A stretch of DNA of 64,000 nucleotides from Halostella salina (lineage in GTDB: Archaea > Halobacteriota > Halobacteria > Halobacteriales > Natronoarchaeaceae). The notes beneath the pieces are model-generated. The model was not told the origin of the DNA, ran no database searches, and saw nothing but the letters and a program-made list of their open reading frames with translations. Shown piece after piece: positions 8,241 to 18,518 of the stretch (within the stretch, counting starts at the first letter, position 1; each line of letters opens with the position of its first letter). The stretch covers positions 124,001-188,000 of the forward strand of contig NZ_RCIH01000006.1 of assembly GCF_003675855.1 (NCBI RefSeq). Direction: 5' to 3'. The translations under genes were made by a program, and so were the position numbers.

Positions 8241-8314
8241 GGGTTTGTGGTCTAGTTGGTTATGACACCTCCTTGACATGGAGGAGGCCGGCAGTTCAAA
8301 TCTGCCCAAACCCA
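8241..8314 (+). tRNA. trnV: tRNA-Val, anticodon GAC
   Basis: A 74-base cloverleaf folds by hand. The acceptor arms GGGTTTG (8241-8247) and CAAACCC (8307-8313) pair perfectly and A8314 is the discriminator. The anticodon stem CCTCC/GGAGG encloses the loop TTGACAT, with GAC at 8275-8277 reading GUC. The T arm GGCAG/CTGCC closes the loop TTCAAAT. There is no intron, and CCA is not encoded (CTC follows the discriminator). The tRNA is transcribed opposite to the trp operon. Confidence 0.97.
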
Positions 8315-8433
8315 CTCCATTCTGCCGACGCTGCTCGCCAGCGTCGGCTGTGTTCGTGTCGTTGGCAGATTTGAACGAGAGAACGCCGAGAGTAGCGAGG
8401 CGTTCGCGTTGTTCAAACTCTGCCCAAACCCAC
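8294..8433 (+). repeat. Direct repeat of the tRNA-Val 3' end (attachment-site-like scar)
   Basis: The last 20 bases of the tRNA plus flank (8294-8315, from GTTCAAAT to CCCAC) recur at 8411-8433 with one inserted base. A third partial copy, GGCAGATTTGAAC at 8364-8376, is in inverted orientation. Two hairpins lie between the copies: 8324-8348 (ten-base arms, five-base loop) and 8381-8405 (GAACGCC/GGCGTTC). Tyrosine-recombinase elements commonly integrate into tRNA 3' ends and leave such duplications; here no integrase remains. Confidence 0.65.
8324..8348 (+). terminator. Hairpin just after tRNA-Val
   Basis: GCCGACGCTG and CAGCGTCGGC form a perfect ten-base stem with loop CTCGC, starting nine bases after the tRNA. 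It could help end tRNA transcription or protect the 3' side for processing. No T-run follows directly. Confidence 0.4.
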
Positions 8434-9110: not shown

Positions 9111-9776
9111 CTACCGACGAACGCCGAGCCACAGCGCAGCGACCGTGAGAAGGAACACGACCGTCGAGAGGTCGTAGGACTGCACGAACAGTTCCGACAC
9201 GGCGACCGCTGAGCCGCCCGCAGTTCCCGCCAGTAGCGTCCCCACCACCGACCCGGTACAGCTCACGCACGTCGCAAGCCCCAGCACTCCGGATACTGCC
9301 GTCCGACTGGTATCGGCGAGTGCGGCGTACACAAGCGCTGCCAGTCCCACATAGCCGACGGTCTTGAACGGGACCAGCGTGACCAGAATCCGGCTGTCGC
9401 TCAAGACGAGTATCGGCCCCCAGCCAGGGGCGGCGGCACGGACTGCCAGACGACCGCCTCCGCCGGCGGAGGCAAACGAAATAAGTCCGCCCGCCCAGGC
9501 GAGCAGGGCGAAGTAGCCCACGGCGGCGACTGCCGCGAGCCATGTGCGCCGCTCGGCAAGCGGTGGGAGCGTCGTCCGGCTGACGGCCAGCACCGTCACG
9601 TTCACCCAGACGAACGGGTACACCAGATACCGAGCCGAGATCACCCGAGCGTCCGTCGTCGCAAAGTATGCTGCGACGACGAGCAGTTCGACTGCAGTAA
9701 GCAGCACGAACGTACGGGCAGCCCGGGCAAGCGGTCCGAGCGACGCTCCGTCCCGTGTGCCCAGTACTGCCGTCAT
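9111..9776 (-). CDS. Multi-spanning membrane protein linked to ba3 oxidase genes
   Basis: A 221-residue protein with about six hydrophobic segments and a CVSC pair near residue 170 (LATCVSCTGSVVG) in a membrane-adjacent segment. It starts two bases after the cbaE stop, so it is probably the last gene of the cba operon. Similar proteins occur next to haloarchaeal oxidase or halocyanin genes (I recall a DUF7546-type family). The CxxC could bind copper or act as a thiol pair in oxidase assembly; that is inference. It has no heme-copper oxidase His pattern. Confidence 0.65.
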   Translation of the reverse strand: MTAVLGTRDGASLGPLARAARTFVLLTAVELLVVAAYFATTDARVISARYLVYPFVWVNVTVLAVSRTTLPPLAERRTWLAAVAAVGYFALLAWAGGLISFASAGGGGRLAVRAAAPGWGPILVLSDSRILVTLVPFKTVGYVGLAALVYAALADTSRTAVSGVLGLATCVSCTGSVVGTLLAGTAGGSAVAVSELFVQSYDLSTVVFLLTVAALWLGVRR

Positions 9777-9778
9777 CC

Positions 9779-9973
9779 TCAGCTACCTGCGCTCCGAGAG
9801 CCGTTCAGCCTGTCGTACGCCACGGCCACGCCCACGAGAAACAGCAGCTCGAGGACGGCGACAGCGATGAGCGGCAGTTCGATGTCGAAGAAGCCGAGAA
9901 ACGTCCTGAGCTCCAGCACGATGGGAACGCTGATCCCAACGAGCACGAGGACGCCGCCGCGCGTGAGCTTCAT
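9779..9973 (-). CDS. cbaE: CbaE-like small oxidase-associated membrane protein
   Basis: A 64-residue protein with two membrane segments (about residues 7-23 and 30-53) joined by a short loop. Its ATG overlaps the cbaA stop by four bases (9970-9973). The position matches the small gene cbaE in the Natronomonas pharaonis ba3 cluster cbaD-cbaB-cbaA-cbaE, and the symbol is given on position and size, since such short proteins carry little signature. It may be an accessory subunit of the oxidase. Confidence 0.6.
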   Translation of the reverse strand: MKLTRGGVLVLVGISVPIVLELRTFLGFFDIELPLIAVAVLELLFLVGVAVAYDRLNGSRSAGS

Positions 9974-11682
9974 ACAACCACCCCCACTATCCAGTACACC
10001 GCCTCGATGAACACGGGGAAGGTCCCGCTCTCGCCGAACAGTCCGCCGTCGGAGACGATGCTCGCAAGCGGCAGCGAGTAGGCGAGAATCACGAGGACGA
10101 TGGCGATGGCGGTCCAGAGCCGGAGGTTGTCGAGCACGACCGGGCTCCCGTCCGCCCCCGACAGCGGGGCCGGGAGGCTGTCGTCGACGGGCATCTCTAT
10201 CGGGTCCTCGATCGCCGACAGGAGGACATTGAACAGGAACAGGACCACCGAGACGAACAGCAGCGTCCCGCCGATGGCCATCTGTATCCGCAGTTCGGTG
10301 ACCGACCCGATGGTCGCGGAGAAGTCGAAGCTCTGGTACTGCGGTTCGGCGGTCCGGCGCGGGATCCCGAGCAGGCCCGCCCGGTGCATCCCGTTGGACA
10401 TGAACACCATGCCGATGAACCAGAGCACGACCTGGAACAGCGCGATCGGACGGCTGTACAGCCGTCGCCCGGTCAGCTGCGGGACGAGCCAGTAGGACCC
10501 GGCCATCATCGTCAACGCGACCGCCGTCCCGACGGTCAGGTGGAAGTGCCCCGGCACCCACAGCGTGTTGTGCACCAGGTAGTTGATGTTCATCCCCGCG
10601 TTGATCATGCCCGAGAACCCGCCCGCGGCGAACATCAGCCCGGCGAGCGCCATGCCGGTAAACGCCGGGTCGCGCCACGGGAGCGACCCGAGCCAGGAGA
10701 GGTACCCCTCCCCGCCGCGCTGGCGCGCGCCGTGTTCCATGCTCGCGACGACGGTGAACGCGGTCAGGAGGCTCGGCAGCAGGAGGAACATCGTGTTCGT
10801 CATCGCGATGAACTTGAACCCCTCGGCGATGCCGGGGTCGAGATACTGGTGATGGATCCCGACCGGCGTCGACAGCAGGAGAAAGAGCACGAACACGACG
10901 CGGGCGAGCGGGTCGCTGAACAGCCGGCCGCCGGCCAGCTTCGGGAGGATGGTGTACCACATCAGGTAGGCGGGCATCAGCCAGAAGTACACCACCGGGT
11001 GACCGAAGTACCAGAACAGCGTTCTGGTGAGCAGCGGATTGACTGTCTCGATGAGCCCGAACGACCACGGGATGAGGAAGACGACGACGGAGACGGCGAC
11101 GCCGATGGTCGACAGATACCACATCAGCATGGTCGTCAGGACCATGAACGTCTGCAGCGGGATCCGCTCGTCCGGGTTGTCGGACCGCCACGAACGGTAC
11201 GCGAGGAACCAGTCCGCGCCGGCGATCCACGTGCCGACGATGAACATCGCCAGGCCGATATAAAACAGCGGATGGGCCTGCAGCGGCGCGTAGAACGTGT
11301 ACAGTACGTCGGCGCTCATGTCGAGACTCGGGAACAGCCCCGCGACGATGGCGACCGCCGCAAACACCGCGCCGGTCGTCGACAGGCCGAACCAGGCCCA
11401 TGTGAGCCTGATGTTTGGCATGGGCCGTTCGAGGCTCCGCGTGACCGCCCAGGTGAACAGCCCGAGCAGGAAGAAGATCGTAAAGACGAGTGCGAGAAGC
11501 ACCCCGTGGCCGGTCAGAACGGTGTAGTAGTCGGTCGAATCGATGATCCGGAGGTAGCCGGTGCGGTGGAGCGCCTGGATGAGACCGAAAAACGCCCCGA
11601 TACCCAGCGCGGCGAACGATACGACCAGCGTCGCCCTGACGACGCGCGCCTCGTCGGGATAGCGGTCTACGAACGTCGACAT
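9970..11682 (-). CDS. cbaA: Cytochrome ba3-type terminal oxidase subunit I
   Basis: The catalytic heme-copper subunit that reduces oxygen to water at the heme a3-CuB site and pumps protons. The 570-residue protein has about 12-13 membrane segments. Recognisable B-type motifs are the early heme-ligand segment LTGHGVLLALVFT, the helix-VI stretch LFWYFGHPVVYFWLMPAYLMWYTI (CuB His, and Tyr in the place that crosslinks in the family), HHQYLDPG and the late VPGHFHLTVGTAVALT with paired heme ligands. It follows cbaB with a one-base gap (11683). Electrons probably come from a halocyanin encoded elsewhere. Confidence 0.95.
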   Translation of the reverse strand: MSTFVDRYPDEARVVRATLVVSFAALGIGAFFGLIQALHRTGYLRIIDSTDYYTVLTGHGVLLALVFTIFFLLGLFTWAVTRSLERPMPNIRLTWAWFGLSTTGAVFAAVAIVAGLFPSLDMSADVLYTFYAPLQAHPLFYIGLAMFIVGTWIAGADWFLAYRSWRSDNPDERIPLQTFMVLTTMLMWYLSTIGVAVSVVVFLIPWSFGLIETVNPLLTRTLFWYFGHPVVYFWLMPAYLMWYTILPKLAGGRLFSDPLARVVFVLFLLLSTPVGIHHQYLDPGIAEGFKFIAMTNTMFLLLPSLLTAFTVVASMEHGARQRGGEGYLSWLGSLPWRDPAFTGMALAGLMFAAGGFSGMINAGMNINYLVHNTLWVPGHFHLTVGTAVALTMMAGSYWLVPQLTGRRLYSRPIALFQVVLWFIGMVFMSNGMHRAGLLGIPRRTAEPQYQSFDFSATIGSVTELRIQMAIGGTLLFVSVVLFLFNVLLSAIEDPIEMPVDDSLPAPLSGADGSPVVLDNLRLWTAIAIVLVILAYSLPLASIVSDGGLFGESGTFPVFIEAVYWIVGVVV

Positions 11683-11683
11683 C

Positions 11684-12199
11684 TCAGCCGCTCACCTCCG
11701 TTCCGTTGAACTCGGTCCGGGGCACGACACGCAGCGTCCCCTCCATGCCGTGGTGTCCGCCGCCGCAGTACTCGTTACAGAGCAGACCGTACTTGCCCGG
11801 ACTGGACACTTCGACCGTGATCGTGGCGACCTCTCCGGGGATCGCCATCGTGTTGGCGTTCGTCCCGACCACTTCGAACCCGTGGATCACGTCCGCCGAC
11901 GTGACGTGGAAGGTCACGGTGCTGTTTGCCGGCACCTCGATCGGTTCCTGTGTCCCGGGCTGGAACATGTACTGTCTCGCGATCACGTACACGTCGTACT
12001 CGCCGTCACCGCTCTCGTAGACGCCGGGGTCGCTGAACTTCGGGTGCTGGTCGAGCGCGTTCGGGTCGACGGTGCCGCCCTCGTCGTCGACCATGGCGAC
12101 GCCGGCACCGACGGCCCCGTAGGCGACGGTGGCGATGAACCCGACGATCAGGAGGAGTGCCAGGCCGAGCCAGAGCTTCTCGTAGTCGTGGATCTCCAT
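11684..12199 (-). CDS. cbaB: Cytochrome ba3 oxidase subunit II (CuA)
   Basis: Accepts electrons from a blue-copper or cytochrome donor through the binuclear CuA site. The 171-residue protein has one N-terminal membrane helix (about residues 8-32) and an external cupredoxin domain. The CuA ligands are visible: an upstream His in VIHGFEV and the loop CNEYCGGGHHGM (two Cys, Glu, His, Met). This loop is close to the family consensus CxxxCGxxHxxM. It lies between cbaD and cbaA with one-base gaps, so the three are cotranscribed. Confidence 0.96.
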   Translation of the reverse strand: MEIHDYEKLWLGLALLLIVGFIATVAYGAVGAGVAMVDDEGGTVDPNALDQHPKFSDPGVYESGDGEYDVYVIARQYMFQPGTQEPIEVPANSTVTFHVTSADVIHGFEVVGTNANTMAIPGEVATITVEVSSPGKYGLLCNEYCGGGHHGMEGTLRVVPRTEFNGTEVSG

Positions 12200-12200
12200 G

Positions 12201-12431
12201 TCAGCCCACCACCGTGAGTTCGCCGCCGAGGAACTCGACGAAGTACATGAACACCCACATCCCGACCAGGATGAGGAAGTACACCAGAATGATCGACAGC
12301 GTCCCCACCGGGTCGAACTCGTCGTGTGACAGTTCCCGTTCCACGTCGCTTGGCGCGGAGCCGACCACGTACCCCCTTGGACGCTCCGGGTCGTCGCCGG
12401 TCGCCGAATCGGTCTCCGTTTCTATCGACAT
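12201..12431 (-). CDS. cbaD: Cytochrome ba3 oxidase small subunit CbaD
   Basis: A 76-residue protein with an acidic cytoplasmic N-terminus (about 45 residues including SHDEFDPVGT) and one membrane helix (about residues 44-66). It resembles the single-helix small subunit placed first in ba3 operons (the subunit IIa position in Thermus). It is the first gene of cbaD-B-A-E, leaderless judging by the promoter spacing. The N-terminal VxxxExELSHDEFDPVGT pattern supports the oxidase-family identity. The call relies on context as much as sequence. Confidence 0.8.
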   Translation of the reverse strand: MSIETETDSATGDDPERPRGYVVGSAPSDVERELSHDEFDPVGTLSIILVYFLILVGMWVFMYFVEFLGGELTVVG

Positions 12432-12530
12432 AAATCTTCGTACGAACAGGGGGTATATATTGCACCGTCGGATTCTCAGTTGTTGAGAACTGGGGAAATC
12501 ACGTAATACTCCCCCGGACGAACGGGGTGT
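12432..12530. promoter_or_regulatory. Divergent promoter region between cba operon and assembly genes
   Basis: The minus strand has a TATATA box at 12455-12460, about 25 bases before the cbaD ATG. Between them is the perfect palindrome TTCGTACGAA (12437-12446). TTCTCA/TGAGAA with a five-base spacer (12473-12489) sits just upstream and could be an activator site serving either direction. On the plus strand GTAATAC at about 12503-12509 fits a promoter for the gene at 12531. Confidence 0.55.
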
Positions 12531-12767
12531 ATGGTGACTACTGGAGACGGAACGACACTTAAAAAAGCCCTGTCGAACGCTTCGCCCCGGACGATGAGTT
12601 TCCTGGCGCTGCTTGCACTCGCTCCCGCAGCGGCGTTCGCGGCGAGCAAGAACCCGTACGCCGGCGCGATCACGTCGGTCAACGTCGTGCTCATCTTCGG
12701 GAGCATCTACCTCCTCGTCTCGCCGACGGCGACCGACCACGGCCACGAGGAGCACGACGCCGCCTGA
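12531..12767 (+). CDS. Small membrane protein heading the oxidase-assembly genes
   Basis: A protein of up to 78 residues with two hydrophobic segments (LALLALAPAAAFAA and TSVNVVLIFGSIYLLVS) and a His/Glu-rich end DHGHEEHDAA that could bind metal. The function is not known. Two starts are possible: ATG 12531, or ATG 12594 (MSFLALLALAP), which lies about 30 bases behind a second TATA-like CTTAAAAAAG (12559-12567). The second gives a more typical membrane protein. It ends five bases before the next gene and probably belongs to that operon. Confidence 0.6.
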   Translation: MVTTGDGTTLKKALSNASPRTMSFLALLALAPAAAFAASKNPYAGAITSVNVVLIFGSIYLLVSPTATDHGHEEHDAA

Positions 12768-12772
12768 CCGGG

Positions 12773-13585
12773 ATGTACGCCCCCCTTCACGGACAGGGTG
12801 TGGCGGTCCCGTCCGGGAACGTCGACGCGCTGGTCTTTCTGGCCGTCGGCTTCCTCGGCGGTGCTCACTGCCTCGGCATGTGTGGCCCGCTCGTGAGCGT
12901 GTACGCCGACCGACTCCGGGCGCAGGAGGGTGCCGAAGCGACGCGTCTCACCGTCCGGCAGGTGCGTCAGCACCTCCTGTTCAACCTCGGGCGGACGGCC
13001 GGCTACGCCGCCGTCGGCGCATCCCTCGCCGCCCTCGGAGCCGTTACCGTCGGTGCAGCGCGGGAACTCCTCGCGGTGGGCCGGGGGGTACAGGCGGCGA
13101 CTGCGGTCCTGACCGGCGGCTTCATCGTCGTCAGCGGGCTCACGTACGTCGGGGGTACTGCGACGCATCCGTCCCTCGGCCCGCTCGACGAGGTGTTCGG
13201 CCGGGTGAGTGGGCTGCTGACCCGTCGCGTCGACGCGTACGTCGGGACCGCCCGGATCGCCGGGCTCGGCGTCGTCCACGCGCTGCTTCCCTGTCCAATA
13301 ACGTATCCGGCGTACGCGTACGCGTTCGCGCTGGGTGATCCGACCCGTGCCGCGCTGCTGCTCGCGCTCGTCGGCCTCGGGACGCTTCCGACCCTGTTGG
13401 TGTACGGGACCGTGTTCGGCTCGCTGTCGGCGAACCGACGCGTGAATCAGGTGCTTGGCGTGCTCTTTGTCGTCCTCGGCTACCTCCTGCTCGCGCACGG
13501 GCTCGACCTGTTCGGCGTCGACGTGCCGCGCCTCGCCCTGCCGCTCCCGTCGCCGGAGTACCCGCTGGCCACACTCCCACCATGA
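12773..13585 (+). CDS. SafE/TauE-like (COG2836) membrane protein, probably oxidase copper assembly
   Basis: A 270-residue protein with six or more membrane segments and the signature GGAHCLGMCGPLVS near residue 28, repeated in degenerate form as GVVHALLPCPITY near residue 165. This duplicated HC..MCG / H...PC arrangement marks the SafE-like family, which in bacteria is found next to the cbb3 oxidase maturation genes ccoI and ccoG. It precedes, and overlaps by four bases, the copper ATPase gene. Copper handling for the oxidase is inferred from the Cys/His motifs and context. Confidence 0.8.
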   Translation: MYAPLHGQGVAVPSGNVDALVFLAVGFLGGAHCLGMCGPLVSVYADRLRAQEGAEATRLTVRQVRQHLLFNLGRTAGYAAVGASLAALGAVTVGAARELLAVGRGVQAATAVLTGGFIVVSGLTYVGGTATHPSLGPLDEVFGRVSGLLTRRVDAYVGTARIAGLGVVHALLPCPITYPAYAYAFALGDPTRAALLLALVGLGTLPTLLVYGTVFGSLSANRRVNQVLGVLFVVLGYLLLAHGLDLFGVDVPRLALPLPSPEYPLATLPP

Positions 13586-15963
13586 GCCGATCCACCACCG
13601 CAGCGGACGACAGCAGCGACGACGCGTGTACCCTCTGTGACCTCCCGACGCCCGACCCGCCGGTCGCCGACGCTGACGTCGAGGGCGGCTACTGCTGCCG
13701 GGGCTGTCTGGAGGTCGCCCGGACGCTGGACGACGTGGCGGCGGCGGACGCCGAGACGGTGCGGGACGAGCACGACGCCGGTTCCGACGACGTGCCCGAG
13801 GACGCCGACCACACGTTCCGTTCCGTCGACGGGATGCACTGTGCCACCTGCGAGACGTTCATCGAGTCGGCCGCAGCCGACGTCGACGGCGTGTATGGCG
13901 CGGAGGCGAGCTACGCCACCGACATGGTGCGTGTGACCCACGACGGCGACGGGGACCTGGACGCGCTCGACGAGACGCTGTCGCGGTACGGCTACGCCGT
14001 CTCGGCGCCCGACGACACCGGGGACGACGACCGCGCGGACGCCGCTATCGCTCGCTTTCTCATCGGCGGCGGCATCTTCGGGATGATGGTGATGCTGTGG
14101 TACGCACTCTTCCTGTACCCGACCTACCTCGGCTTCGACCCGCTCGTCGACCTGGGTGGGTTCGACGGGCTCTACCTCTTCGGCAACGTCTGGCTCATGA
14201 GCTCCATCGTCCTCTTCTACACGGGCTATCCGATCCTTCGCGGCGCGGTCGTCAGCCTCCGTGCGGGACAGCCGAACATGGACCTTCTGGTGTCGATCGC
14301 GGCGACGAGTTCGTACCTGTACAGCACGGTCGCGGTCGTCGCCGGACGGACGCACGTGTACTTCGACGTGACCGTCGCCATCGTGCTCGTGGTCACCCTC
14401 GGCAACTACTACGAGGACCGGATCAAGCGCACGGCCGCCAGCGGGCTCTCGGAGCTGACCGACGCCCGCGTCGAAGACGTGACCCGCGTGACGGCCGCGG
14501 GCGACCACGAGACGGTCCCCGTTGGAGCGCTTGCGCCCGGGGACCGCGTGCTCGTCAGGCCCGGGGAGCGCGTCCCGGTGGACGGTGAAGTGGTCGAGGG
14601 GACCGCCGCCGTCGACGAGTCGCTGATCACCGGGGAAGCCGTCCCCGAGACCCGTCGCCCGGGCGACCGCGTGCTCGGCGGGACGGTCGTCACGGACGAG
14701 GCGCTCGTCGTCGCTGTCGGCGACGACGCGACGAGCACGCTGGACCGCCTCGTGGACCGCCTCTGGGCGATCCAGAGCTCGCGCTCCGGCGTCCAGCGGC
14801 TCGCCGACAAACTCGCAACCCTGTTCGTCCCGACGGTGCTCGTCCTCGCGGCGGCCGCGGCGGCGTCCGCGCTGCTCACCGGGGCGCAGTTCACCGAGGC
14901 CCTGCTCGACGGCCTGACTGTCCTCATCGTCTCCTGTCCGTGTGCGCTGGGGCTGGCGACGCCGCTCGCGGTGGCCGCTGGCATCCGGGACGCGTCGGAC
15001 CGGGGGATCGTCGTCGCCTCCGACGAGGTGTTCGAGACCGCCCCCGACGCCGACGTGGTAGTCTTCGACAAGACCGGCACGCTCACCGACGGGCGGATGA
15101 CGGTCCGGACGGTCGTCGCCGACGACTGCGGGTCCGACGGCGACGAGACGGTGCTGGCACGCGCCGCCGCGCTGGAGCGCTACTCGTCACACCCCATCGC
15201 GTCGGCGATAGCGGCGGCCGCCGACGACGTCCCGGACGCCACCGACGTCGAGACACACGACACCGGCGTCACCGGCGTCGTGAACGGTGAGACGGTCGTC
15301 GTCGGCCATCCACGTCTCGCAGCGTCGCACGGGATCGACCGCACGGCGTCGGCGGACGACGCGGTCGCGGCCGCCCGCGAGGACGGGGACGTGCCGGTAG
15401 TCGTCGGATGGGACGGTCGCGTCCGCGGCGTGGTCGTCGTCGGCGACACCCCTCGCCCCGGTTGGCAGTCGATCGTCGCGGACCTCGCGGCCGACCGCGA
15501 GGTGGTCGTGTTGACCGGCGACCACGAACGGGCCGCCGCCCGGTATCGGTCGGACCCGAACGTGTCCGAAGTGTTCGCGGGCGTGCCGCCACAGGCCAAA
15601 CAGGAGACCGTGGAACGCCTGCAAAGCAGAGGGACGGTCGCAATGGTCGGCGACGGGAGCAACGACGCGCCGGCGCTCGCGGCGGCCGACGTCGGCCTCG
15701 CGCTCGGGACGGGCACCGACATCGCCTGTGACGCTGCCGACGCCGTGCTGGTCCGGGACGACCTCGGGGCGGTCGCCGACGTGTTCGCGGTTGCCCGCGG
15801 CACGAACGCCCGGATCCGGCACAACCTCGGCTGGGCGTTCCTCTACAACGCGGTCGCCATCCCGCTCGCGGTGTTCGGCCTGCTGAACCCGCTGTTCGCA
15901 GCCGTCGCCATGGGAACGAGCAGCCTGCTCGTCGTCGCGAACTCGTCGCGGGTGGTAGCATGA
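13582..15963 (+). CDS. Heavy-metal (copper) P1B-type ATPase, CcoI/CtpA-like
   Basis: A 793-residue transporter that uses ATP to move Cu(I) across the membrane, probably outward for insertion into the oxidase. In order: an N-terminal cysteine region CTLC...CCRGC (residues 16-42) like that of FixI/CcoI and CtpA-type pumps, an HMA domain with GMHCATC (about 85-95), membrane segments, the actuator motif SLITGEAVPE, the metal-path CPC in SCPCALGLATP (about residue 453), the phosphorylation motif DKTGTLTDG (about 496) and GDGSNDAPALAAADVG (about 690). It overlaps both neighbours by four bases. Export direction and metal are inferred. Confidence 0.92.
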   Translation: MSRSTTAADDSSDDACTLCDLPTPDPPVADADVEGGYCCRGCLEVARTLDDVAAADAETVRDEHDAGSDDVPEDADHTFRSVDGMHCATCETFIESAAADVDGVYGAEASYATDMVRVTHDGDGDLDALDETLSRYGYAVSAPDDTGDDDRADAAIARFLIGGGIFGMMVMLWYALFLYPTYLGFDPLVDLGGFDGLYLFGNVWLMSSIVLFYTGYPILRGAVVSLRAGQPNMDLLVSIAATSSYLYSTVAVVAGRTHVYFDVTVAIVLVVTLGNYYEDRIKRTAASGLSELTDARVEDVTRVTAAGDHETVPVGALAPGDRVLVRPGERVPVDGEVVEGTAAVDESLITGEAVPETRRPGDRVLGGTVVTDEALVVAVGDDATSTLDRLVDRLWAIQSSRSGVQRLADKLATLFVPTVLVLAAAAAASALLTGAQFTEALLDGLTVLIVSCPCALGLATPLAVAAGIRDASDRGIVVASDEVFETAPDADVVVFDKTGTLTDGRMTVRTVVADDCGSDGDETVLARAAALERYSSHPIASAIAAAADDVPDATDVETHDTGVTGVVNGETVVVGHPRLAASHGIDRTASADDAVAAAREDGDVPVVVGWDGRVRGVVVVGDTPRPGWQSIVADLAADREVVVLTGDHERAAARYRSDPNVSEVFAGVPPQAKQETVERLQSRGTVAMVGDGSNDAPALAAADVGLALGTGTDIACDAADAVLVRDDLGAVADVFAVARGTNARIRHNLGWAFLYNAVAIPLAVFGLLNPLFAAVAMGTSSLLVVANSSRVVA

Positions 15964-16688
15964 CCGACGAACGCCGCTTCGACGGGCGTACCAGTTCGGC
16001 TTTGACCGATCGGTCGCAAGGATCGCGTATGCGACGACGGCAGTATCTCCGATCGGTCGCCGGGGTGAGCGGCGCGGCAGCTGGGTTCGCCGGCTGTCTC
16101 GGCACCGGACGTTCGGACACGACGCTCGGCGAACCGGACCGACAGGTCGAGAGCGAGGACCTCCAGTATCCCGCGTGGGGACAGCGCGTGCCCGACGTGA
16201 CGCTCCCCGACCCGCTCGACGGCGGCGAGGTCGCCGTCCGCGACGTGGAGACGCCGAGCCTGCTCACGTTCTTCTACAGCCACTGTCGGACGATGTGTCC
16301 GGTGCTGATAAGCGCCCTCCGGAACGTCCAGACCCACGCGACGAACGAGGGGTACGCCGACGAGGTGGCGTTCCTCCCGGTCACGTTCGACCCGGCGCGC
16401 GACGACGCCGACCGGCTCCGGTCGTACGCTGACCGGATGAACGTCGACGCGACGGCCGGGAACTGGCGGTTCCTCCGCCCCGAGGGCGAACAACGGGCGG
16501 AGGCAGTCGTCACCGAGGAGTTCGGCGTCGCGTTCGAGCGCACGCCAGCGAAGGACGGCGACGGCTACATGTTCACGCATCTCGGGCTGATCCTGCTCGT
16601 GAACGCCGACGGCTACGTCGAGCGGGCGTACCGTGGCGACTCGCCCGACTCCCAGACGATCATCGACCACCTCCAGCGCCTCCGATGA
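15960..16688 (+). CDS. Sco/SenC copper chaperone for oxidase CuA
   Basis: A thioredoxin-fold copper-binding protein that delivers copper to, or reduces, the CuA site. CRTMC gives the family CxxxC pair at residues 109 and 113, followed by P, and the third ligand His lies in MFTHLGLILLV near residue 205. An N-terminal Tat-type signal RRRQYLRSVAGVSG is followed by AGC, a possible lipobox, so it is probably a membrane-anchored external lipoprotein. The first ATG overlaps the ATPase stop (ATGA). An internal ATG at 16029, directly before RRRQYL and after AAGGA, may be the real start. It overlaps the next gene by four bases. Confidence 0.92.
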   Translation: MTDERRFDGRTSSALTDRSQGSRMRRRQYLRSVAGVSGAAAGFAGCLGTGRSDTTLGEPDRQVESEDLQYPAWGQRVPDVTLPDPLDGGEVAVRDVETPSLLTFFYSHCRTMCPVLISALRNVQTHATNEGYADEVAFLPVTFDPARDDADRLRSYADRMNVDATAGNWRFLRPEGEQRAEAVVTEEFGVAFERTPAKDGDGYMFTHLGLILLVNADGYVERAYRGDSPDSQTIIDHLQRLR

Positions 16689-17206
16689 AGCGGCGACGGT
16701 TGATCGGCGGGATGGCCGGACTGACGGTCGCGGGGGCCGGCGGATGGGCCGCACTCACCGGGTCCGAGGACGGTAAGTCGGTCGCCGTCGAGATGGCGAC
16801 GATAGCTGCGCGCGGGTCCAGCGAGGGCCGGCGGACGGTCCCCGTGCAGGACGGCGTGGCAGTGGTCGACCTGTTTGCGACGTGGTGTGCCCCCTGCGAG
16901 GAACAGATGGACACGCTGTCCGCCCTCCACGACGAGTTCGGCGACCGCGTCGCGTTCGTCTCGGTCACCAACGAACGGTTCGGGAGCACGTTCTCCCGGG
17001 ACGATCTCCGAACGTGGTGGGACACCCACGGCGGGGAGTGGACGCTCGGCCACGACCCGGAGAGCAACCTGATGCGGACGCTGGGAGTCGACGGGCTTCC
17101 GTACCTCGCCGTCACCGTCGACGGGGCCGTAACGTGGAGCGAACGCGGGCTGACCGACCGTTCGACGCTTCGGTCCCGGATCGAGGCCGCCCTCGCCGAT
17201 GAGTGA
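16685..17206 (+). CDS. TlpA/ResA-like membrane-anchored thioredoxin
   Basis: A 173-residue extracytoplasmic thioredoxin. Residues 1-25 are KRRRLIGG plus a hydrophobic segment, a Tat-like or membrane anchor signal. The active site WCAPC has its Cys at residues 68 and 71, followed by EEQMDTLSALHDEF, and a cis-Pro loop GVDGLPYLAV. It probably reduces the Cys of Sco or CuA before copper loading, receiving electrons from the CcdA-like protein encoded next. It overlaps the Sco gene by four bases and the ccdA-like gene by eight. Confidence 0.9.
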   Translation: MKRRRLIGGMAGLTVAGAGGWAALTGSEDGKSVAVEMATIAARGSSEGRRTVPVQDGVAVVDLFATWCAPCEEQMDTLSALHDEFGDRVAFVSVTNERFGSTFSRDDLRTWWDTHGGEWTLGHDPESNLMRTLGVDGLPYLAVTVDGAVTWSERGLTDRSTLRSRIEAALADE

Positions 17207-17867
17207 CGCCGCGTTCGCCGGGACGGTCGGGTTCGCGGTGGGGGCGGGGCTGACGACGTTCTTCGCCCCGTGTGCCTACCCGCTGTTGCCCGGGTACGTC
17301 GGATACTACGCGAGCAGCGACGGCGGGGACGTGTCCCATCAGCGGCCGCTGATCGACGGGGTCGTCGCCGCCGGCGGTGCGGTCCTCGCGTTCGTCGCTG
17401 TCGGCGCGGTCGTGTTCCTGCTCGGGCAGCGCGCGGTCGCAGACATCGCCCTCGTGGAGCCGCTCGTCGGCGTCGGCCTCGTGGCGCTGGGGGTGGTGAC
17501 GCTCGCCGACCGTGCGCCCGAGGTGCGCGTGCCGCTGCCCGAGCGTCCGGAATCCCGGGTTCAGTACGGGGTGTTCGGCGCGGTGTACGCCGTCGCCGCT
17601 GCGGGCTGTGTGGTGCCGGTGTTCCTCGGCGTCGTGATTCAGGCGATCGCGCTGGGGCCGGTACGCGGCACGGTCGCGTTCGCGGCGTACGCGCTGAGCG
17701 TCGCCGCGCCGCTGGTCGCCGTGACCCTGCTCGCGAGCGCCGGTCTCGACGTCTGGCGCGACCTGGGCCGCTACGCCGGGTCGGTTCGACTCCTCGCCGG
17801 GACCGTCATGGTCGGCGCGGGTTGCTGGCAGCTGTACCTCTCGGTCGTCGTCCTCGACGTGCTGTGA
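17199..17867 (+). CDS. CcdA-type transmembrane thiol-electron carrier
   Basis: A 222-residue membrane protein with six predicted helices that passes electrons from cytoplasmic thioredoxin to the outside. It has the two family cysteines in FFAPCAYPLLPGYVGYY (about residue 26) and AAAGCVVPVFLG (about residue 133). It is the last gene of the assembly operon and overlaps the TlpA-like gene. It should keep that protein reduced. The lack of cytochrome c maturation genes nearby supports a CuA-assembly role over heme attachment. Confidence 0.9.
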   Translation: MSDAAFAGTVGFAVGAGLTTFFAPCAYPLLPGYVGYYASSDGGDVSHQRPLIDGVVAAGGAVLAFVAVGAVVFLLGQRAVADIALVEPLVGVGLVALGVVTLADRAPEVRVPLPERPESRVQYGVFGAVYAVAAAGCVVPVFLGVVIQAIALGPVRGTVAFAAYALSVAAPLVAVTLLASAGLDVWRDLGRYAGSVRLLAGTVMVGAGCWQLYLSVVVLDVL

Positions 17868-17951
17868 GCGTGCTATCGGCGAGTCCGTGACCCGCCCAGG
17901 TGGCGTGCCGGTTGTGCTAGGCCTTTCAGTGCCGAGACCGTACACAGGAAC

Positions 17952-18518
17952 ATGGCAAGCGTAATCGTCGTCGGCGGCGGCCCCGCCGGCCTGAGCGCGG
18001 CACTGTTTACCAGCAAGAACGGACTCGACACGACGGTGTTCGACACCGACAAGACGTGGATGCACAAGGCCCACCTGTTCAACTACCTCGGCATCCGGAG
18101 CATGGACGGCGACGTGTTCCTCGACCGTGCCCGCGAGCAGGCGACCACCGACCACGGCGTCGACCTGCAGGAGGGCGTCGAAGTGTCCGCCGTCGAGCAG
18201 GACGGCGACAGCTTCGTCGTGACCGCGGACGGTGAGGACCACGAGGCCGACTACGTCGTCCTCGCGACCGGCGCGAACCGCGACCTCGCGGAGGACCTTG
18301 GCTGTGCGTTCACCGACGAGGACGTGGTCGACGTGAACGTCTCGATGGAGACGAGCGTCGACGACGCCTACGCCACGGGCGCGATGGTCCGCGCCGAGGA
18401 GTGGCAGGCGATCATCTCCGCCGGCGACGGCGCGGCCGCGGCGCTGAACGTGCTCAGCAAGGAGAAGGGCGAGCACTTCCACGACTTCGACACGCCCGAC
18501 ACCGCCGCCCAGCGGTAG
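17952..18518 (+). CDS. Short FAD/NAD(P)-binding oxidoreductase, thioredoxin-reductase-like
   Basis: A 188-residue flavoprotein. It starts with a Rossmann GGGPAGLSAALFTSKNG, has the ATGANRDL stretch and ends with DAYATGAMVRAEEWQAIISAGDGAAAALNVLS, like the FAD domain of thioredoxin reductases. The internal NADPH domain and CxxC redox pair are missing, so it is shorter than a true TrxB (about 310). Such compact proteins are common in haloarchaea and lack an assigned substrate. A CTTTC box near 17924 predicts a leaderless message. It probably forms its own unit after the oxidase-assembly genes. Confidence 0.85.
   Translation: MASVIVVGGGPAGLSAALFTSKNGLDTTVFDTDKTWMHKAHLFNYLGIRSMDGDVFLDRAREQATTDHGVDLQEGVEVSAVEQDGDSFVVTADGEDHEADYVVLATGANRDLAEDLGCAFTDEDVVDVNVSMETSVDDAYATGAMVRAEEWQAIISAGDGAAAALNVLSKEKGEHFHDFDTPDTAAQR

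Follow-up and report, generated by a model that had tools for sequence, protein, structure and literature searches.

Haloarchaeal oxidases of the ba3 family are fed by halocyanin. Cytochrome ba3 has been described from Natronomonas pharaonis and the corresponding cba genes from Haloferax volcanii, where HVO_0943 and HVO_0945 belong to the cba locus (PMC8305020; this and the other papers are cited from excerpts). In bacteria, cbb3 oxidases come with the ccoGHIS/fixGHIS genes, and thus with a dedicated copper ATPase of the CcoI type (PMC8475189, PMC8267372, PMC12617631), and TlpA reduces the cysteines of Sco and of the CuA site ahead of copper insertion (PMC9145763). Here we analyse a locus at positions 9111–17867 of a 64,000-nucleotide stretch of Halostella salina DNA (assembly GCF_003675855.1, contig NZ_RCIH01000006.1, 124,001 to 188,000 of the forward strand), referred to below as the window. 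The locus shares with the N. pharaonis and Hfx. volcanii systems the cba gene set, a B-type subunit I and the link to halocyanin, but it also holds a paired CcoI operon, a dyad shared by the two operons and a Sco-TlpA-CcdA cassette, none of which is described in the excerpted account (PMC8305020). We read it, with a probability of about 0.64, as a low-oxygen ba3 branch and its copper pump under one dyad, with a mobile Sco-TlpA-CcdA set added behind ccoI.

The genome carrying the window measures 3.74 Mb and is 99% complete. An earlier note on this DNA, made from the letters alone, had proposed eleven genes here, and all eleven are present in the assigned families; the start of cbaD was corrected to 12431. 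The genes form two divergent blocks, cbaDBAE with DUF7546 on the minus strand and SMP (small membrane protein), DsbD_2, CcoI, Sco, TlpA and CcdA on the plus strand. Conservation was followed in two samples. The named-locus sample consists of the best 80 of 148 CbaA relatives, in which the closest named sequences are those of Halorussus (84–86% identity), marking the DNA as haloarchaeal and not bacterial, and the class sample consists of 145 genomes, with CbaA in 100 of them at 113 places. The features are as follows.

9111–9776 (−): DUF7546 (PF24412) membrane protein with a CVSC motif, last gene of the cba operon here; Pfam 8.4e-62
9779–9973 (−): CbaE, small membrane subunit, assigned by position and by tblastn conservation in 36/80 loci; without a Pfam match
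9970–11682 (−): CbaA, B-type (ba3) oxidase subunit I; COX1 7.2e-91, Thermus ba3 structure 1.3e-125
11684–12199 (−): CbaB, subunit II with CuA site; COX2 match
12201–12431 (−): CbaD, small membrane subunit; tblastn match in 80/80 loci
12473–12489: dyad TTCTCAGTTGTTGAGAA, proposed bidirectional operator, with 41 bp to either start codon
12531–12767 (+): SMP, which opens the copper operon and has a His-rich tail; profile match in 79/80 loci
12773–13585 (+): DsbD_2 (SafE-like) membrane protein; PF13386 1.5e-39, motifs GAHCLGMCGPL and LPCP
13582–15963 (+): CcoI-like P1B Cu(I) ATPase; N-terminus with CTLC/CCRGC, one HMA domain, CPC
15967–17901: segment missing from the genome G127, corresponding to the Sco-TlpA-CcdA cassette; flanks align at 85% and 89%
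16029–16688 (+): Sco copper chaperone, SCO1/SenC; PF02630 1.4e-18, CxxxC = CRTMC
16685–17206 (+): TlpA-like thioredoxin; Redoxin/Thioredoxin match, CxxC = CAPC, twin-arginine-like signal
17199–17867 (+): CcdA-type thiol transporter; PF02683 30.5 bits against a cut-off of 27.1, Cys25 and Cys137

The plus-strand genes had been taken for a six-gene overlapping run. Their tight packing stands, with overlaps of 4 bp between DsbD_2 and CcoI and between Sco and TlpA, and of 8 bp between TlpA and CcdA, but SMP and DsbD_2 are separated by a 5-bp gap, and CcoI and Sco overlap only if Sco starts at 15960. A twin-arginine lipoprotein-like signal (MRRRQYLRSVAG...AGC) favours the start at 16029, which would leave a 65-bp gap after CcoI.

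By sequence, cbaDBAE is assigned as a B-type ba3 oxidase with a CuA site. CbaA matches Thermus ba3 entries at 1e-123 to 1e-125, whereas A-type enzymes reach 4e-13 or weaker, and its haem and CuB ligand histidines (GHG 58, GHP 227, HH 277 and GHFH 378) align with those of the Thermus enzyme. CbaB carries the CuA motif CNEYCGGGHHGM, and its ligands H106, C141, C145, H149 and M152 are kept in 81/81 rows. Both CbaB and CbaD are present in 80/80 named CbaA loci. Across the genome, the COX1 family is represented at seven places, of which one is weak, and the COX2 family by three genes that carry a CuA motif.

The copper ATPase follows this oxidase closely. CcoI stands on the opposite strand in 78/80 named CbaA loci, which argues that the pairing is not due to chance; of the two loci without it, one lies on a contig that stops just upstream of cbaD. 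In the class sample, among the matches listed, CcoI was found within 8 kb of 98 of the 113 CbaA places, divergently in 94, and 13 of the 15 places without a nearby listed CcoI are second CbaA copies. The reverse search gave the same picture, every one of the 67 CcoI matches at or above 784 bits lying no more than 8 kb from CbaA. The earlier note had named such a co-occurrence survey as the means of refuting it, and the pairing held in both directions. The CcoI pump and the ba3 oxidase are therefore paired almost strictly. Among the second CbaA copies, those with no listed CcoI nearby are found in G136, G084, G020, G029, G031, G063, G095, G051, G082, G054, G042, G100 and G070.

SMP occurs at 79/80 named loci (by profile). 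DsbD_2, present as the sole copy in the genome of the window, was found at 46/80 and is missing from 34/80. Twenty distant CcoI paralogues were also fetched (L258–L277): 12 have DsbD_2 and no oxidase relative near, four have neither, and four lie near another oxidase relative, one of these four also with DsbD_2.

That the ATPase is an ordinary copper-detoxification pump, placed beside an oxidase by happenstance, is a highly improbable account. The motifs CPC, N-x6-YN-x4-P and MxxSS, which we take to be P1B-1 Cu+ signatures, occur in 76/76 cba-linked ATPases, and such motifs do not tell detoxification export from assembly export. In addition, the match to PF12156, presumably the N-terminal domain typical of CcoI, falls under its cut-off (E 0.12; 13.6 bits against 27). 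Happenstance, however, sits badly with the strict two-way linkage to CbaA, and a separate CopA-like ATPase (L009), with two HMA-type motifs, groups with the rhizobial L251 in the tree. The genome encodes three other P1B ATPases besides CcoI, and the cba-linked ATPases form one clade separate from all three, in a tree built on a thinned set (every fourth cba locus) with long sequences trimmed to the final 780 residues. The nearest row outside this clade, with weak support, is Sinorhizobium FixI. Relatives of the ATPase on plasmids are mostly Ag/Cu pumps of enteric bacteria and were uninformative.

The parallel with bacterial cbb3 systems lies in an oxidase with a dedicated CcoI-type copper ATPase. 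It extends to a Sinorhizobium record (L252) in which FixI is grouped with a CcoN-like gene and a DsbD_2-like frame, much as DsbD_2 adjoins CcoI here. Unlike the bacterial enzyme, the oxidase of the window is B-type with CuA and not C-type, and no ccoG, ccoH or ccoS was found by Pfam among the eleven genes, the rest of the genome not having been searched. The locus had also been said to combine parts that bacteria split between cbb3 systems (ccoI, safE) and aa3/ba3 systems (sco, tlpA). The Sinorhizobium cluster agrees with such a division, but the division is too simple, since in Campylobacter jejuni CcoI and Sco both act on one cbb3 oxidase (PMC8267372, in excerpt).

The two operons face each other across 99 bp, from the cbaD start at 12431 to the SMP start at 12531, and this spacer holds a perfect dyad, TTCTCA-GTTGT-TGAGAA, at 12473–12489, with a TATA-like ATATATA on its cbaD side. 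The pattern TTYYCA-N5-TGRRAA (17 bp) was set after inspection of the window and of four Halorussus promoters. An exact match to it occurs in 18 of 82 cba upstream regions, where 0.015 are expected from shuffling, and 55 of the 82 have a best match of at least 11 of the 12 letters (0.34 expected). Information content over 59 distinct sites is 0.85 to 2 bits in the half-site columns and below 0.7 bits in the flanking ones. The position is also conserved: among 63 loci with a site, 62 have an ATG on the SMP side at 40–43 bp and 46 have the cbaD start at 40–44 bp.

The dyad recurs elsewhere in these genomes. Eight places were found in the genome of the window (contigs C1, C2, C5 and C10) against 0 for a reversed control, and seven other genomes gave 32 places against 3. 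Around the 37 distinct sites outside the window, 15 open reading frame (ORF) starts fall at 40–44 bp (0.91 expected) and six at 45–49 bp (1.04 expected), these starts being first-start ORFs and not mapped starts. Besides cba/SMP, the own-genome sites lie 46 and 43 bp before two halocyanin genes, 50 bp before sufC, 18 bp before a PaaB-like gene and, measured by hand, 18 bp before a DoxX/DoxD gene; a NarG-like gene, named via its 94% identical homologue in G127, is a further target. The remaining site, C1:509815, falls within a long ORF and could be a false one. In the other genomes, the dyad precedes cydA, norB, NirK-like multicopper, NarG-like, halocyanin, radical SAM and PaaB-like genes and genes for chemotaxis receptors. 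Distances vary, the cydA starts as called lying 16 to 172 bp off; of the four cydA cases, two rest on a Pfam match and two on N-terminal similarity.

Several of these targets coincide with reported targets of NarO. The NarO/DmsR operator, CGAA-N4-TTCG, is a palindrome found before haloarchaeal nirK, norB, halocyanin and haem genes (PMC5746218, PMC10062603, both in excerpt), and it was absent from all 80 cba regions searched. One genome has two genes for DmsR_N+HTH_10 regulators with the dyad 42 and 48 bp upstream. We infer that a DmsR/NarO-type activator would act at the dyad under low oxygen. The dyad could instead be read by a regulator unrelated to DmsR/NarO, such as an HTH_20 protein, or by several regulators, since HTH_20 genes stand beside two of the eight own-genome sites and similar proteins lie near halocyanin sites elsewhere. 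We regard this as a serious contender, though not the favoured one: the two DmsR_N+HTH_10 genes carry the dyad as autoregulated regulators would, and the list of dyad targets resembles the published NarO list. As a separate observation, the HTH_20 genes at L289:4936-5579 and L288:7879-8379, one of them with a DUF7521 membrane gene, adjoin dyad-bearing halocyanin genes.

The three genes behind ccoI behave differently from the pump. Sco stands beside CbaA at only 5/80 named loci by tblastn (6/80 by profile), and in the class sample it lies within 15 kb of 4/113 CbaA places among the matches listed, where about one would be expected by chance (our own arithmetic); the Sco list for this sample covers 104 of the 106 genomes with Sco. 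When 52 Sco loci were examined, Sco, TlpA and CcdA stood together in 36, in the order seen here in 29. Cassettes without cba are borne on plasmids in Haloarcula hispanica, Halobellus limi, Natribaculum luteum and Halomicrobium, where they lie among unrelated genes; in Natribaculum luteum, cytochrome bd genes are found about 4 kb off.

These counts bear on the proposal of the earlier note that the six assembly genes make up one set for the ba3 oxidase. As a conserved, ba3-dedicated unit this is largely refuted, and we consider it improbable. Its appeal is in the tight same-strand packing, in the plausibility of every family as an oxidase assembly factor, and in the repeated, variously arranged Sco neighbours of cba loci (L044/L045, L068, L072, L081, G053, G065 and G109), which hint at functional attraction. 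It is contradicted by the scarcity of Sco near CbaA, by a cassette that mostly stands elsewhere with neither a cba nor a CcoI relative alongside, by the absence of DsbD_2 from 34/80 loci, and by an empty site within the same genus.

This empty site is found in G127. Alignment of its cba-ccoI region with the window runs at 85% as far as 15966 and resumes at 89% from 17902. At the 3' junction of ccoI, G127 has 68 bp and the window 1,935 bp, the extra stretch being exactly the cassette. The Sco of G127 is encoded on another contig and falls in a supported clade with Scos from plasmids and other families, excluding that of the window (the tree omitted rows of fewer than 151 or more than 419 residues, and L164_Sco1, L174_Sco1 and L256_Sco1 are very divergent). 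No Sco was found near ccoI at any of the four named Halorussus loci. Taken together, the empty site, the separate clade of the G127 Sco and the Halorussus loci without Sco make gain of the cassette in the lineage of the window likelier than loss elsewhere. Composition was considered as a sign of recent foreign DNA and gave none, the GC fraction being 0.71 for the cassette and 0.71 for the SMP-DsbD_2-CcoI stretch. Other lineages show other attachments: in Halomicrococcus (L081), Sco-TlpA-CcdA lies in the same run ahead of DsbD_2, in a Haloarculaceae genome (L072) the attachment follows cba, and in Halovivax (L068) it lies on the far side of ccoI.

Sco, the CcdA-type gene and DsbD_2 are single copies in the genome, all within this locus, and face three CuA subunit genes. 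A single Sco for three CuA subunits makes a shared role more probable than one confined to ba3, and Sco and CcdA probably also serve the CuA sites of A-type (aa3) oxidases. A related arrangement is known from Haloferax mediterranei, where denitrification strongly induces the operon E6P09_05575-05560, which encodes a cupredoxin, SCO, thioredoxin and a cytochrome c biogenesis protein (PMC11218638, in excerpt). Like the cassette, it unites the last three of these, but it opens with a cupredoxin gene and was discussed by its authors in relation to NosZ, not ba3. On this evidence the cassette might be held to have landed behind ccoI by chance and to serve mainly other CuA enzymes, namely A-type oxidases here and nitrous oxide reductase in other species. 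The presence of only one Sco and one CcdA alongside two further CuA subunit genes, the NosZ discussion and the plasmid cassettes among unrelated genes all point that way. We nevertheless think it unlikely, as the cassette lies on the ccoI strand and within 65 bp of it, Sco is found next to cba in other lineages too, and the free cassette on the Halobellus limi plasmid (L211) has a perfect dyad upstream, so that the cassette need not adjoin ba3 to come under the same control.

Such shared control is not general. Before Sco units, the dyad reaches 11–12 of 12 letters in 6/52, and at least 10 letters in 10/52 against 2.14 expected; therefore only some free cassettes share it. The cassette in the window is without a dyad of its own and, judged from its position, would depend on the SMP promoter. 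Sco-TlpA-CcdA is best described as a portable CuA-loading cassette, probably parked behind the pump in this lineage. It parallels the bacterial CuA route (PMC9145763, in excerpt) in its Sco chaperone, TlpA reductant and CcdA thiol donor, here in one gene run, and differs in being archaeal, mobile and probably common to several oxidases. Directly 3' of it lies a gene for a FAD (flavin adenine dinucleotide)/pyridine-nucleotide oxidoreductase of 188 aa (17952–18518), which in G127 directly follows ccoI. This gene was not found at the 80 named cba loci; its product is a possible candidate for the electron source of CcdA.

At the other end of the locus, DUF7546 appears to be connected with both oxidase types. 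Both cysteines of its CVSC motif are kept in 46/46 sequences. The family was found at 14/80 named cba loci, being absent from most, and in the class sample at 135 places in 94/145 genomes, 22 of them within 8 kb of CbaA among the matches listed. At the 30 best-scoring places (L215–L244), a ctaB relative lies within 1.5 kb in 30/30 and none is near CbaA. The second DUF7546 of the genome adjoins such a gene and an A-type coxB; the 478-aa neighbour is one that we take, from its sequence, to be ctaB (a CtaA-CtaB fusion). Because its neighbours are either ctaB and A-type coxB or cba, DUF7546 looks like a candidate assembly factor for both oxidase types. A known fold was sought and not recovered: the AlphaFold model (predicted template-modelling score, pTM, 0.74) gave no Foldseek match at E<1 and a best VIA-align Z of 4.1. 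There was likewise no PDB sequence match, and absence of a match does not show a new fold. The name DUF7546 was not found in the open-access papers searched. Further outward, between a trpD-like gene and the cba genes, lies a tRNA-Val (gac) at 8241–8315, the sole tRNA that ARAGORN finds in the window.

From these elements the following mechanism can be proposed. The cbaDBAE operon would give a B-type ba3 oxidase taking electrons from halocyanin, whose genes carry the same dyad. The SMP/DsbD_2/CcoI operon would export Cu(I) through the membrane for the CuA and CuB sites of the oxidase, as bacterial CcoI/FixI does for cbb3; homology, motifs and strict linkage all point to this. The single dyad midway, just upstream of both core promoters, is well placed, by its position and recurrence, to switch both operons, and the switch would probably be a DmsR/NarO-family activator under oxygen limitation. 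Lying exactly at the 3' end of ccoI, the cassette should therefore be co-expressed with the pump. By analogy with bacterial work, CcdA would move reducing power outward, TlpA would reduce the cysteines of Sco and CuA, and Sco would insert the copper; Sco and CcdA, as the only genome copies, would probably mature the CuA sites of the A-type oxidases too.

Some observations weigh against this reading. CcoI groups weakly with Sinorhizobium FixI, at a Shimodaira-Hasegawa-like approximate likelihood ratio (SH-aLRT) of 93, not starred, on a long branch and in a thinned sample, and to this must be added the sub-threshold PF12156 match. The first dyad count on the cba set was post hoc, though the genome-wide counts and the distance peak were not, and the half-sites of the dyad differ from those of the NarO operator. 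Finally, the other two loci with Sco beside CcoI (G109 and L081) differ in order from the window.

A wider proposal may be ventured, in which our confidence falls a little short of even. The dyad would be the putative operator of a haloarchaeal low-oxygen regulon, bidirectional at cba, that takes in ba3 and its pump, the bd oxidase, the reductases for nitrate, nitrite and NO, the halocyanins, genes for haem and Fe-S, sensors and its own DmsR-type activator; the B-type oxidase with CcoI would play the role of the FNR/FixK-controlled cbb3 with CcoI in bacteria. DUF7546, for its part, would act as a new assembly factor with a CVSC motif, common to A- and B-type oxidases. The new parts are the regulon and DUF7546, new in this case meaning not described in the open-access literature as searched.

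The copper loading of cytochrome oxidases in archaea has hardly been studied. The strict ba3/CcoI pair, the single control site and the pair of occupied and empty cassette sites make the present proposals directly testable in Haloferax volcanii, and the regulon prediction names both targets and a regulator class. DUF7546 offers a concrete gene family tied to haem A synthesis and to oxidases. If the proposals are true, a haloarchaeal B-type oxidase with CcoI would fill the role that cbb3 with CcoI fills in bacteria.

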